Of a stretch of DNA of 64,000 nucleotides, positions 39,230-49,429 are shown piece after piece. Origin of the DNA: Cloacibacterium caeni (GTDB lineage Bacteria; Bacteroidota; Bacteroidia; Flavobacteriales; Weeksellaceae). The DNA lies in contig NZ_OU015321.1 in NCBI RefSeq assembly GCF_907163105.1, positions 1,550,001 to 1,614,000 on the forward strand. The letters are read 5' to 3'. Each line of letters opens with the position of its first letter. Positions within the stretch are counted from its first letter, which is position 1. The notes under the pieces are model-generated. The model worked only from the letters and a program-made list of their open reading frames with translations. It ran no database searches and had not been told where the DNA came from. Made by a program: the position numbers and the translations under genes.

Positions 39230-39937
39230 ATGAAAAAACTAATAATCACTGCCCTAATTTTATTGAGCTATCAAGTTGAAGCTCAAATCAAAGCTGTAAC
39301 TGACGAAGGAAAAGAAGTGGTTCTATTTGATAATGGAACTTGGAAATTTGCTAACGATAGTGATGCAAAAGTTCTAGAAACCATCACTACCAATGAAACT
39401 CCATTTAATAAAGATAAAGCTTCCACATTTTTATACCGAAGCAAAAAAGTAAATGCGGGAGTTTATGTAAATCCTAAAATCTGGAAAATTACCGATGCTT
39501 TTAAAACTCCAGTTTTAGAATATGCTTTTGTAAACAGTTTAAATCCTAATACTTTTGGATTGTTAGTCTCTGAAAATATAGAAGTAGGAAGTTTGAAAAA
39601 TCTGAAAGATCTCATCATTATCAATACCCAAAATAGAGCAGATTATTTTAAATTAAAAGAATCTGAATACAGAACTGTAAATGGTTTAAAAGTTCTTTAC
39701 CTAAGATACATTGCGAATACTAAAGGTCTTGATTTTGAATATCAAATGTATGCTTTTCTTACAGACAATGGATATTGCTCTTTAACCAGTTATGCTTTTG
39801 CTAAAAATTTCGACCAAAATAAAGCAGAATTAGACCGATTCTTAAATGGTTTGGTAGAAACAAAAAAAGCAGAAGGCACTCAAACAGTAGAAGTATATAC
39901 ATCACCACCTCCAGCAAAAATTAAGAGTAAAAATTAA
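39230..39937 (+). CDS. Exported hypothetical protein
   Basis: A 235-residue protein with signal peptide (MKKLIITALILLSYQVEAQ). The first mature segment, AVTDEGKEVVLFDNGTWKF, is a short motif seen in many Bacteroidota exported proteins. The rest is mixed alpha/beta without recognisable catalytic residues. It follows the metal-operon terminator, so it is transcribed separately, and it overlaps the 3' end of convergent recG by 4 bp. Function unknown. Confidence 0.8.
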   Translation: MKKLIITALILLSYQVEAQIKAVTDEGKEVVLFDNGTWKFANDSDAKVLETITTNETPFNKDKASTFLYRSKKVNAGVYVNPKIWKITDAFKTPVLEYAFVNSLNPNTFGLLVSENIEVGSLKNLKDLIIINTQNRADYFKLKESEYRTVNGLKVLYLRYIANTKGLDFEYQMYAFLTDNGYCSLTSYAFAKNFDQNKAELDRFLNGLVETKKAEGTQTVEVYTSPPPAKIKSKN

Positions 39938-42027
39938 GAGATTTTCCCCCATTTATTTTTGCCTTTGTACTGCTTAACGTAGTAATTTCTAAGGCTTTGA
40001 TGCTCTGGAAGCTGTAGATTTCCGTCTATTTTTAGCAAATGTTCTACGGTTTCTTTTGCTGCTTTTATGATATTTCCATCATTTACCAAATCCAGGCGTT
40101 TAAAATCTACCATTCCGCTTTGTTGAGTTCCCAGAATATCTCCAGGACCGCGCAATTGCATGTCTACTTCAGAAATTTTAAAACCGTCATTGGTTTCGCA
40201 CATGGTTTTGATGCGTTTTCTAGATTCTGTGGAGAGTTTATCACCCGTCATCAGAATACAATAGCTTTGTTCAGCTCCTCTTCCTACTCTACCACGAAGC
40301 TGGTGCAACTGTGAAAGCCCAAATCTTTCGGCACTTTCTATCACCATTACTGAAGCATTCGGAACATTTACACCCACTTCTATTACGGTAGTTGCGACCA
40401 TAATATCTGCTTTTCCTTTGGCAAAATAATTCATGGCTGCATCTTTTTCATCGGGTTTCATTTTCCCGTGAAGCATGGTGGTATTATAATCTGGAAGCGG
40501 AAAAATTTCTGAAATATGCTCAAAACCTTCCATTAAATTTTTATAATCCAGCGTTTCAGATTCCTCGATTAATGGATATACAAAATACACTTGTCTGCCT
40601 TTGGCAATTTCTTCTTTGGCAAAACCATAAACAGAATTTCTATCTTTTTCTCTTCGGTGAGCTGTGATAATGGGTTTTCTACCAACAGGCATTTCATCAA
40701 TTACCGAAACATCTAAATCAGAATAATAGCTCATTGCCAAAGTTCTAGGAATAGGTGTAGCCGTCATTACCAAAATATGCGGTGCAATTTTATTTTTAGC
40801 CCAAAGTTTTGCTCTTTGCGCTACTCCAAATCTATGCTGTTCATCAATGATGGCTAATCCTAAATTTTTGAACCGAACAATATCTTCTAAAACCGCATGA
40901 GTTCCTACTAAAATCGAAAGTTCACCATTTAAAAGTTCTTCATGAATCATTTTTCTTTCGGCGGTTTTGGTAGAACCGGTGAGTAATCTTACTTTAACAT
41001 CTGTTTCCTTCAATAAATCTGCAATCGAATTAAAATGTTGAGTTGCCAAAATTTCTGTAGGCGCCATCATACAACTTTGGAAACCATTATCCATCGCCAA
41101 AAGCATCGCCAAAAGGGCCACCATCGTTTTACCAGAACCTACATCTCCTTGCAATAATCGGTTCATTTGGATAGGTTTTTTCAAATCATTTCTGATTTCT
41201 TTCAGCACTCTTTTTTGGGCATTGGTTAATTCAAAAGGAAGGAAATTTTCATAGAAATTGTTGAAATTTTCGCCTACTATCGGAAAAGGATTTCCAATGG
41301 TAAAACTTTTGTTGTAATTTTTTTTCAAACCGTAACCCAACTGAAAAAAGAAGGCTTCTTCAAATTTTAATCTTCTGTCTGCATGTTTTGCAAAATCTGC
41401 ATTTTGTGGAAAATGAATGTTGAGATATGCTTGTTGACGACTCATCAATTTCAGAGATTTCATGAGGGAAACTGGCAAATTTTCTTCGATTAACTGAGGA
41501 ATCTGCGAAATGATGTTGGCTTGAACCGTTTGAAAAAATTTCTGGTTTAGTCCACGTTTCGTCAATTTTTCTGAACTTGGATAAATAGGTCTGAGTCTTT
41601 CTTCTGCCGATTTCTTGTCTTCTAATTCAATTTCTGGATGCGGCATAGAAAAACTATGGTTAAACTCTTGAATTCTCCCAAAAATATAGATTTCTCGGTT
41701 TACGGGAATCTGTTCTTTCATCCAATTAGAATACTGAAACCAAACTACATCTAGTGTTCCTGTTCCGTCTGTAAATTTCCCAGAAAGTCGTTTTTTTCCT
41801 TTGGCATAAGTGATTTCCTGCAATTCTGTAATCCTACCTTTGAGTTGAATTTCCAAATTATCTTCCTTGATGTCTGCAATTTTATAAACTTTCGATTTAT
41901 CCAAATATCTTATCGGAAAAAAATGCAGAAAATCTTCCACCGTTCTAATATCTAAGACATTAGCAATCAACTTGGCACGTTCTGTACCAATTCCTTTTAT
42001 AAATTCTATGGAAGTGTCTAGATTCAA
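39934..42027 (-). CDS. recG: ATP-dependent DNA helicase RecG
   Basis: A 697-residue superfamily 2 helicase that reverses stalled forks and resolves branched DNA. It has the wedge/OB domain (about 1-230), Walker A GDVGSGKT, the DEQH box in IIDEQHRFG, motif III [13 protein letters not shown] and the C-terminal [30 protein letters not shown] region. The start is TTG 42027 (then [13 protein letters not shown]); an in-frame stop lies 12 bp upstream and no ATG is available. Homologues I recall start at the same residue. A TAATTTTG sequence overlaps this TTG, an odd position for a promoter. Confidence 0.95.
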   Translation of the reverse strand: [697 protein letters not shown]

Positions 42028-42093
42028 AATTACAATTTAGGATTTTCGGAATGTGAAATTAAGGAAATTCTTAAAAAAATTAGAATTATTTTT

Positions 42094-42101
42094 TAATTTT
42101 G
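42094..42101 (+). promoter_or_regulatory. -7 box of the HNH/GHKL gene
   Basis: TAATTTTG is a full TAnnTTTG match 29 bp before ATG 42131. Confidence 0.55.
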
Positions 42102-42130
42102 GAAGTATAAATAAATAAAAACAATAAAAC

Positions 42131-43186
42131 ATGTCAGAAAGAGATGATTTCTCTGAAGCTACAAAAAAAATAATCGCTTCTCGAGCTGGATACTTATGCA
42201 GTTTTTTAGGTTGTGGTCAACTCACTTTAGGTCCAAGTAATGAAAGTTCTACAAGTATATCAAAAAATGGGATGGCTTGCCATATAAATGCAGCTTCCCC
42301 TGGAAGAGGCTCTAGAAGATATAATTTTGAAATGAGTATAGAAGAAAGAACACACGCAAATAATGGAATTTGGATGTGTTATGATCATGGAAAATTAATT
42401 GACGATGATGAATCAAGATTTACAACAGATATACTTTTAAAATGGAAAGAAATTGCTGAACAAACAGCAAAAATTATGCAGGAAAGAAAATGTACATATG
42501 AAGATGCTATCTCAATTTACAACTTTTCAAATCTTATTACTGATAAAATATCATTTAATAATTTAGGTCATGAAACAGAAATAATAGGAAACACTTTAAA
42601 AGATTGCTGCACCGAAATTTCTTGGGGTAAAAAATCAGAAAATATAACTCGAGACTATTTGATTGAATTAGCAAGAAATGCATTTATTCATGGATCTGCA
42701 ACAGAAATTGAACTTGAAATTCTTGAAGATAAAATTATTTTAATCGATAATGGGAATGAATTTAATCCAAAAAAATTATTAGAATCTAAAAAAATAAGAG
42801 GTGGATTTATTGCTGCAGAAACATTTCAAAATAACGATTGTAATCTAGTAACAACTTACAAAAGAGATTATAATAAAAATATTTATTCAATCTCAAAAAT
42901 AAGAAAAGCTGAAGATGTTGAGTCGCTTACGCCTTGTAATTTAAGAATAACTTATGACGATTTTAGAAAAGGAACTTTAGATTTTTCAATTTTTGAACAC
43001 TGCAATGAAATTTTTGTGATTCTTCCAAATTTTTTAACTCCAAGTGATATTGGATTAATAATTAATCTACGTGATGAGTTATTAAAATTAGAAAAGCAAA
43101 TAAACATAGTTTACTACGATATCTCAGAGCATTTAGTAAAATGGATTATTGATGAAAATCCTTATTGGAGAATTATTAAAATATAA
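42131..43186 (+). CDS. HNH-like domain fused to a GHKL (histidine-kinase-type) ATPase domain, unknown function
   Basis: A 351-residue cytoplasmic protein of two parts. Residues about 8-112 carry an HNH-like metal-binding layout: Cys23/Cys28 (YLCSFLGCGQ), ACHINAASPG with His51, and NNGIWMCYDHGKLID with Asn79, Cys83 and His86, then a TxxLLKWKEIAE tail typical of such proteins. Residues about 165-300 resemble a GHKL/Bergerat ATPase: N box IELARNAFIHGSA (Glu179, Asn183, His187), G1 box LIDNGNEF (Asp206, Gly208) and a KKIRGGFIAAE loop. No HisKA or receiver domain is visible. The gene is AT-rich and sits in an accessory spot between recG and a hairpin repeat pair. A nuclease-ATPase of defence type is a reasonable hypothesis only. 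Confidence 0.75.
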   Translation: MSERDDFSEATKKIIASRAGYLCSFLGCGQLTLGPSNESSTSISKNGMACHINAASPGRGSRRYNFEMSIEERTHANNGIWMCYDHGKLIDDDESRFTTDILLKWKEIAEQTAKIMQERKCTYEDAISIYNFSNLITDKISFNNLGHETEIIGNTLKDCCTEISWGKKSENITRDYLIELARNAFIHGSATEIELEILEDKIILIDNGNEFNPKKLLESKKIRGGFIAAETFQNNDCNLVTTYKRDYNKNIYSISKIRKAEDVESLTPCNLRITYDDFRKGTLDFSIFEHCNEIFVILPNFLTPSDIGLIINLRDELLKLEKQINIVYYDISEHLVKWIIDENPYWRIIKI

Positions 43187-43242
43187 GTTATCAAAAAAAT
43201 CAAATAGATTATTTGGTATTTTAATTCACTATACTTTTAATG

Positions 43243-43281: not shown

Positions 43282-43370
43282 TTTGGCTAAAGCCAAATTG
43301 ATTTTTATGATTTCTAAAACGGACTAAAGTCCGTTCCTATTGATAAAAATATTCATAAATCCTGTGGATT
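43282..43370. repeat. Pair of TAAA-tetraloop hairpins plus a short hairpin
   Basis: TTTGGC-TAAA-GCCAAA (43282-43297) and AACGGAC-TAAA-GTCCGTT (43318-43335) lie 20 bp apart, followed by TATTGA and by AATCC-TGT-GGATT (43358-43370). The same two-hairpin arrangement recurs at 49379-49429, so this is an interspersed repeat and not a unique terminator. Confidence 0.75.
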
Positions 43371-43420: not shown

Positions 43421-43957
43421 TTACTCTTTAATCTTAGATTTAAACTTCTTCTGATAGTTTTCCCATTGTTCACGGGTTTTGATATTTTTATATTCGCCTT
43501 TAGAAAATAGAGTGATATAAGGTTCTAATTCTTTGGCAGAGAAATATCCCATCAAATTGGTAATCGGTTGAGCATTTTCGTCTAAAAATACCAAAGCTGG
43601 ATAGCCATTGACATTCATAAACTTCGCGAACTGGTGCATTGCATTTTTGCTTTTTGCCTTGGTAGCAAAATCAGGATTGGTAAAAACTCTGTCGTAAAAA
43701 TTAACCGTCTGATTGCCTTCTGCATTGAATTTTACAGCATAAAAATTTTCATTGATGTATTTCGAAATAATAGGATGTGAATAGGTTTGTTTATCCATCA
43801 ATTTACACGGTCCACACCAATCTGCATAAAAATCGATGAGAATCTTTTTTGGATTGGCTTTTTGAGCAGTTAACGCTTGTTCCATCGTCATCCAATTCAC
43901 TTGTGAAAAGGAAAAACTGAACACCCAAAGAAATAACATCGATAAAGTAGCTTTCAT
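43421..43957 (-). CDS. Exported thioredoxin-family protein
   Basis: A 178-residue protein with signal peptide (MKATLSMLFLWVFSFSFS) and a thioredoxin fold carrying WCGPC in DFYADWCGPCKLMDKQT, with the cis-proline segment NGYPALVFLDE. It probably acts as a periplasmic disulfide reductase or isomerase. The extra segment after the active site (EGNQTVNFYDRVF) resembles thiol:disulfide proteins of DUF255/thioredoxin_7 style. It lies 18 bp after a POT transporter gene on the same strand and may be co-transcribed with it. Confidence 0.87.
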   Translation of the reverse strand: MKATLSMLFLWVFSFSFSQVNWMTMEQALTAQKANPKKILIDFYADWCGPCKLMDKQTYSHPIISKYINENFYAVKFNAEGNQTVNFYDRVFTNPDFATKAKSKNAMHQFAKFMNVNGYPALVFLDENAQPITNLMGYFSAKELEPYITLFSKGEYKNIKTREQWENYQKKFKSKIKE

Positions 43958-48799: not shown

Positions 48800-48807
48800 T
48801 AACTTTG
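48800..48807 (+). promoter_or_regulatory. -7 box of the toxin-antitoxin pair
   Basis: TAACTTTG is a full TAnnTTTG match 21 bp before ATG 48829. It overlaps the in-frame TTG at 48805, ruling that out as the start. Confidence 0.6.
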
Positions 48808-48828
48808 ATAAAAATAAATTCTAAAAAA

Positions 48829-49077
48829 ATGGAAATCACAATAAAAGATTTAGAAAAAAATCTAAAGACACTTCCCAAAGAACTTTTAGGGAATGTGAAT
48901 GACTATATTGATTTCTTGAAGGAGAAATACTTAGATAAAGATTGGGCAAATCAACTATCTGATAGCCAAAAAGAATCCATCAAAAAAGGAATTTCAGATA
49001 TAGAAAATGGGAACATCATTTCGCATGAAGAAGCCAAACAAAAAATTAGAAATTACCTTCAATCAAAAGCCATTTAA
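48829..49077 (+). CDS. Antitoxin of a ParE/RelE-type toxin-antitoxin module
   Basis: An 82-residue, highly charged helical protein (MEITIKDLEKNLKTLPKEL... ending NYLQSKAI) with the C-terminal segment SIKKGISDIENGNIISHEE. That segment is typical of antitoxins paired with RelE/ParE toxins in Bacteroidota, where a Kxx.DIENG..ISHEE stretch binds the toxin. The stop TAA is followed immediately by the toxin ATG with no gap. A DNA-binding fold is not obvious in the N-terminal part, so self-regulation is uncertain. Likely a two-gene operon from the TAACTTTG box. Confidence 0.85.
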   Translation: MEITIKDLEKNLKTLPKELLGNVNDYIDFLKEKYLDKDWANQLSDSQKESIKKGISDIENGNIISHEEAKQKIRNYLQSKAI

Positions 49078-49356
49078 ATGAAAATTATTTGGTCTAAAGA
49101 AACTCTAGAAAACTATTTAAAAGTTTTAGATTATTTACTAGAAAACTGGACAATAAAAGAAATCGAAAGATTTGAAAATAATTTTGACGAACTGATTGAA
49201 AGGTTAAAATCACACAAAGAAATTTGTCCAAAATCTAAACTTCTAAATTTCAGAAAATGCAAAATAGACGAAAATAATTCTTTAATTTATCAAGAAGTAA
49301 ATCATACAATTTTCCTTATCACAATTATAGATAATAGAAGCTTTCATAGCTACTAA
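49078..49356 (+). CDS. ParE/RelE-superfamily toxin
   Basis: A 92-residue protein of the ParE/RelE fold: IIWSKETLENYLKVLDYL at the N-terminus, a central helix (IKEIERFENNFDELIERL), then the strands RKCKIDENNSLIYQEV and IFLITIIDNR. The two branches poison gyrase (ParE) or cut ribosome-bound mRNA (RelE); the residues do not decide between them. It starts at the base after the antitoxin stop, so it is translationally coupled. Complete length. Confidence 0.85.
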   Translation: MKIIWSKETLENYLKVLDYLLENWTIKEIERFENNFDELIERLKSHKEICPKSKLLNFRKCKIDENNSLIYQEVNHTIFLITIIDNRSFHSY

Positions 49357-49378: not shown

Positions 49379-49429
49379 TTAGCTAAAGCTAATGGAATTT
49401 TCATAAAAAAAGCGGACTAAAGTCCGCTT
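49379..49429. repeat. Second pair of TAAA-tetraloop hairpins
   Basis: TTAGC-TAAA-GCTAA (49379-49392) and AAGCGGAC-TAAA-GTCCGCTT (49410-49429) lie 17 bp apart and are followed by AATATTGA. Order, spacing and trailing TATTGA match the pair at 43282-43335. It lies after the toxin gene and may also act as a terminator. Confidence 0.75.

Follow-up and report, generated by a model that had tools for sequence, protein, structure and literature searches.

The gene studied here lies in a window of 64,000 nucleotides, from a genome assembled as one contig of 2.72 Mb, and encodes a protein of 351 amino acids that joins an HNH nuclease domain to a GHKL ATPase domain (HNH-GHKL). On our reading, the genes of this genome place it in the Flavobacteriales, Chryseobacterium group. 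The open reading frame is intact, begins with ATG and ends with TAA after 351 codons, and has the same two ends as in an earlier note on this DNA. Its coordinates and those of its features are collected in Table 1. Both flanking genes, recG and a gene for a thioredoxin-like protein, are oriented opposite to it. The gene is AT-rich, as that note had said (27.8% GC vs 32.6% for the window).

Comparison with congeners bears on how the gene came to be there. In three of them (G039, G056 and G080) recG and the thioredoxin-like gene are adjacent, at about 93-95% DNA identity to the window, and a segment of about 1.17 kb is missing; the claim that the gene occupies an accessory gap is thus borne out. 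Because these congeners have no gene at the recG/thioredoxin-like site, the window copy is a horizontally acquired single gene and the sole content of the insert. Its surroundings are housekeeping genes: when the ten genes around it were scanned with PADLOC as a control, nine gave no match and the tenth, recG, had a best hit of 1.5e-11. Upstream of the start codon, TAATTTTG is a candidate -7 element in agreement with TAnnTTTG, which we take to be the Bacteroidota consensus.

A perfect palindrome, GGACTAAAGTCC, occurs at 43321-43332 and again at 49414-49425 (two in the window vs 0.11 expected). The REP-like hairpins reported beside the gene are therefore real as palindromes, but they do not belong to it: the downstream one (43321-43332) is kept at the empty sites of G056 and G080, making it an independent element, and the hairpins were rejected as a component of the system. 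Elsewhere in the window (48805-49356), two small adjoining ORFs resemble a RelB/RelE-type toxin-antitoxin pair; they have no PADLOC match.

Table 1. Features of the HNH-GHKL locus (window coordinates)
Feature	Position	Strand	Basis or conservation
recG helicase gene, left flank, conserved neighbour outside the system	39934..42027	-	
Inserted segment missing in congeners, ends approximate	42070..43236	.	Comparison with congeners
TAATTTTG, candidate -7 promoter element (Bacteroidota type), 29 nt before the start codon	42094..42101	+	Presumed consensus
HNH-GHKL gene, single, 351 aa	42131..43186	+	ORF and family of 14 relatives
HNH nuclease domain, Cap5/SAVED-HNH type, residues 1-119	42131..42487	+	Sequence homology, alignment
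Probable structural zinc site C23, C28, C83, H86	42197..42388	+	Sequence; zinc by analogy with AsCap5
H51	42281..42283	+	Invariant in family
N78	42362..42364	+	Invariant in family
D91	42401..42403	+	Invariant in family
GHKL/HATPase domain, residues 138-258 (about), SpoIIAB/RsbW-like fold	42542..42904	+	Profile, fold
N box E179-x3-N183-x3-H187-G188-x-A190	42665..42700	+	See text
G1 box D206-N-G208-x2-F211	42746..42763	+	See text
G2 box G224-G225	42800..42805	+	G224: no variation in alignment A3, almost none in A2
Small alpha/beta domain, residues 259-351, resembling STAS only in the order of its elements	42905..43183	+	Model, alignment
Thioredoxin-like protein gene, right flank, conserved neighbour outside the system	43421..43957	-	

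Domains and active sites of the protein

Residues 3-121 match the PADLOC CBASS endonuclease effector, SAVED-HNH and PDC-M68A models, the best E-value of the scan (1.8e-19) being that of PDC-M68A. The solved HNH-SAVED structure 7rwm was matched in a sequence search with the single window protein (7.7e-4), and the family profile matched 9om4 (2e-9; annotated only as HNH endonuclease) and 8ysq (1.1e-8). Judged by these matches, the N-terminal domain is an HNH nuclease of the type found in the CBASS effector Cap5, which agrees with the HNH-like domain of the earlier note. Seven residues never vary across the 14 rows of the HNH-GHKL alignment: C23, C28, H51, N78, C83, H86 and D91. Which of them are catalytic? 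Position 86 is a cysteine in several wider relatives (L005, L006, L038, L051 and L053), and this suggests that C23, C28, C83 and H86 form a zinc site, probably holding a zinc ion as in the zinc finger that AsCap5 carries (PMC8568899). Given that role, H51, N78 and D91 would be the catalytic set. Of the residues put forward for mutation, H51, N183 and D206 stand, but N79 was rejected as an HNH residue: position 79 is a glycine and the conserved asparagine is N78.

The second half is harder to annotate. No Pfam or NCBIfam model reached it when the window protein was scanned by itself; HATPase_c and HNH_2 match some relatives, weakly. A C-terminal profile of 12 sequences, run against 395 genomes, also retrieved histidine-kinase ATPase domains (best E 9e-6), and those of the domains that were read directly have the N box and DNG motif in register. 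HHalign of this profile against HATPase domains collected independently via Pfam PF13581 gave an E-value of 1.3e-7 and a score of 49.5; as controls, 30 alignments with shuffled columns scored 15.2 or less and the reversed one 10.2.

Structure prediction led to the same fold. An AlphaFold model built on 25 sequences was confident (pLDDT 89.2, pTM 0.85), the single-sequence model being useless (pLDDT 37). In Foldseek searches its best PDB match was SpoIIAB (1th8_A; E 3.4e-4, TM 0.62 on target), followed by RsbW (6m36; TM 0.70) and then histidine kinases; Cap5 (8fmh) was also matched (E 2.7e-3), an alignment taken to run through the HNH domain. In the model, then, the fold of the GHKL domain is nearest to those of two anti-sigma kinases, SpoIIAB and RsbW. 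A Bergerat fold free of signalling modules had been described for this region; the fold is confirmed, but its type is refined to one from a family of signalling kinases. The N, G1 and G2 boxes of the GHKL superfamily are all conserved, and the invariance of E179, N183, G188, A190 and G208, together with the near-invariance of H187, D206 and G224, argues that the ATP site is probably functional.

The two-domain picture of the protein holds for HNH and GHKL but omits a third domain, a small C-terminal one in which C269 is invariant and C291 nearly so in the family alignment. The order of its elements in the AlphaFold model resembles that of a shortened STAS domain, which would make a striking companion to a SpoIIAB-type domain. 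Searching the PDB with profiles of the C-terminal part returned matches at chance level only. HHalign gave STAS identity a probability of 0.1% in one comparison and of 8% in the other, where the register differed although the score exceeded 40 shuffles.

These features raise the question of whether the protein is a fused kinase switch, in which a SpoIIAB/CapK-like serine/threonine kinase would phosphorylate its own C-terminal (or HNH) domain and so free the nuclease, perhaps on a single-stranded DNA trigger as for CapK. The two best fold matches fit such a kinase, as do the invariant glutamate (E179) and asparagine (N183) of the N box and a C-terminal element order compatible with a shortened STAS domain, and CapK/CapS and VapKSC link GHKL kinases and STAS proteins to immunity (PMC13373217). 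However, STAS identity lacks profile support, some relatives have a threonine in place of the SxSD serine or lack it, and the surroundings of the loci showed no recognisable STAS or sigma-factor gene. We regard a kinase switch as unlikely, and its complete one-chain form, with a SpoIIAB-type kinase, its own STAS-like substrate and an HNH domain whose DNA cleavage is started directly by infection-triggered phosphorylation, as slightly less likely still. Nucleotide-dependent gating of the HNH domains is favoured over autophosphorylation.

Relatives and their genomic settings

Alignment-based scans found 14 relatives with the same architecture, about 30-45% identical; pattern scans with the window protein alone gave none. 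Three are incomplete: L021 is cut by the contig end, L024 is incomplete at its start and L030 has an early stop. L023 and L024, both on contigs from Verrucomicrobia, may represent one gene. The relatives come from at least five phyla: Bacteroidota (another genus of the same family, Mariniphaga and Pedobacter), Alphaproteobacteria (Rhodobacteraceae, Rhizobium, Salipiger, Devosia and Gemmobacter), Campylobacterota, Myxococcota and Verrucomicrobia, with Helicobacteraceae and Myxococcaceae among the families represented. Two are in phages, Rhizobium phage RHph_N28_2 and an IMG/VR provirus; no PHROG covering the GHKL half was found. Across this range the HNH and ATP-site residues are invariant or nearly so. 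Scored on the C-terminal profile, family members reach at least 158 bits; histidine kinases do not go above about 26, and the rest of the HNH proteins in the set score nothing. HNH-GHKL proteins therefore stand apart as a group of their own within a broad range of HNH fusions.

A GHKL domain combined with a nuclease is also the logic of MutL. On that ground the protein might serve housekeeping or DNA repair, its nuclease coupled to an ATP-driven, MutL-like clamp action. Its distribution is patchy, however: with the C-terminal half as query the gene was found in only 2 of 396 genomes of the order, congeners are without it, and its contexts are those of mobile and defence genes. A repair role is accordingly extremely improbable.

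Six bacterial relatives lie near genes listed by PADLOC. For instance, of the two loci from Mariniphaga or Rhizobium relatives, L020 has the BREX genes BrxHI (1.5e-254), PglZ (6e-42) and BrxA (5e-10) as neighbours, and L025 has BovA (1.9e-193), an Argonaute-associated nuclease (1.6e-98) and the Gabija genes GajA (1.8e-73) and GajB (6.4e-55). The others adjoin a SIR2-type PDC-S25 gene (2.5e-69) and a CBASS-type E1-E2 gene (9.5e-131) in L026, a class II Argonaute (1.2e-193) and a type I specificity subunit (1.1e-35) in L028, a reverse transcriptase (5e-45) in L023, and PDC-S05 (1.8e-79) in L027. In L021 an AbiEi-type gene lies about 5.3 kb from the HNH-GHKL gene. Among the neighbours scanned at L022, L029, L030 and L094 there was no defence gene, and several contigs are short. 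No partner gene was found to recur beside the relatives. Relatives thus occur in defence islands and phages and have no conserved housekeeping context, the setting that the earlier note had named as evidence against its proposal.

Two of the loci have other points of note. In L027 (9186-13248) the HNH-GHKL gene is followed by a different GHKL gene (HATPase_c_3, 603 aa), a gene for a DUF4062 protein and the PDC-S05 gene. In L094, from the genome (G109) of the closest relative in the same taxonomic family, small ORFs, unrelated to one another, form a long array, and some of them start with a repeated MCSETRPNAKPENV leader; this is possibly an immunity-gene array.

Both phage copies lie between the large terminase gene and a NusG-like gene, each at its own point and on the other strand from the packaging genes, as expected of a moron. 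Could the protein instead be a selfish, homing-type HNH endonuclease that aids its own spread or phage packaging? The HNH domain, the closeness of the phage copies to terminase genes and the clean one-gene insertion are what such an element would show. Against it, the phage copies run opposite to the packaging genes and have no intron location, chromosomal relatives adjoin defence genes, the HNH domain is of CBASS-effector type, and homing has no need of an ATPase module. We consider this very unlikely.

Proposed function

That relatives are carried by phages and accompany known anti-phage genes, across five phyla or more, indicates that HNH-GHKL is probably an undescribed one-gene anti-phage system, the defence role being read from structure and context. 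That a single gene suffices is suggested by its being alone in the insert and by the absence of a recurring partner. The reading that we think likely is of a stand-alone effector in which a sensing half, made up of the GHKL and C-terminal domains, releases the HNH nuclease. The earlier proposal of a candidate defence protein gains support from both domains and from the defence-island and phage contexts.

In this mechanism killing or restriction would fall to the Cap5-type HNH nuclease. ATP would be bound by the GHKL domain, which together with the C-terminal domain would form the sensing and switching half, standing where Cap5 has its SAVED sensor. While the cell is at rest, this half might keep the HNH domains separated or out of alignment; a signal of infection would then alter the ATP-bound state or the oligomer, bring the HNH domains into an active arrangement and lead to DNA cutting. 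In Cap5 itself an HNH dimer is kept inactive until the other half receives its signal and rearranges (PMC8568899). The model can be tested directly through the conserved residues.

Comparison with known systems

No published or named HNH-GHKL system was found in profile libraries or in the openly accessible literature, although one may be described elsewhere; the earlier note likewise knew of none. Cap5, the HNH-SAVED effector of CBASS (PMC8568899; PDB 7rwk, 7rwm and 8fmh), has the same type of N-terminal HNH domain, about the same total size, the probable zinc site, and a nuclease half followed by a C-terminal regulatory half; HNH-GHKL differs in having GHKL and C-terminal domains where Cap5 has SAVED. 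No SAVED sensor was found in the window protein: the PADLOC SAVED-HNH models match only residues 5-142, and profile and fold give GHKL for the C-terminal half. There is no CD-NTase/cyclase gene in the window context and none was recognised among the neighbours scanned at the other loci. Membership of Cap5/CBASS was rejected for lack of a SAVED domain and of an adjacent CD-NTase gene.

VcSduA, a Shedu protein with a GHKL domain that has been shown to be anti-phage (PMC12137116), likewise joins a GHKL ATPase to a nuclease in a single protein, but its GHKL domain is N-terminal and its nuclease is of the PD-(D/E)xK (DUF4263) class rather than HNH. The window protein has no Pfam match to DUF4263, and the SduA model of PADLOC aligns with residues 4-121, the HNH part, alone; Shedu membership was rejected for want of this nuclease. 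SpoIIAB, RsbW and CapK, the last of which regulates immune operons (PMC13373217), share the GHKL fold and ATP-site motifs but have no HNH domain, whereas HNH-GHKL has no HTH, no STAS partner found and no sigma-factor context. Prokaryotic MORC-like GHKL proteins occur in operons with HNH genes, unfused in the HNH-GHKL manner (PMC2292703).

The HNH module itself recurs with other partners. It is shared with PDC-M68A and with ORF2 of the P2-EC46 Z-region (AJ512680; 53% identity over 111 aa), the C-terminal half of which is unrelated to the GHKL family. In that ORF (L017, 488-1594), as in L003 and L037, the part after the HNH module weakly matches, below threshold, the contractile sheath initiator PF10934 (E 9e-4 to 0.03) and is possibly a phage-tail-derived sensor in a lysogenic-conversion gene. 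The module is also joined to other sensor-like modules, NACHT (L032) and nSTAND (L033), as the presumed effector; these proteins differ in having a large NTPase and a repeat sensor (about 1,450-1,600 aa). Both are NLR-like with long repeat regions, and L034, L035, L048 and L050 resemble L032 by sequence.

The HNH module is thus already widely shared, and GHKL-controlled nucleases are already known in VcSduA. If our reading is right, HNH-GHKL would extend the regulatory halves of the HNH effectors in bacterial immunity by a new class, the GHKL domain of anti-sigma-kinase type. As a compact protein of 351 residues, carried by at least five phyla and by temperate phages, it would join two themes that have been described separately, Cap5-type HNH effectors and the GHKL control of immunity seen in CapK and VcSduA.
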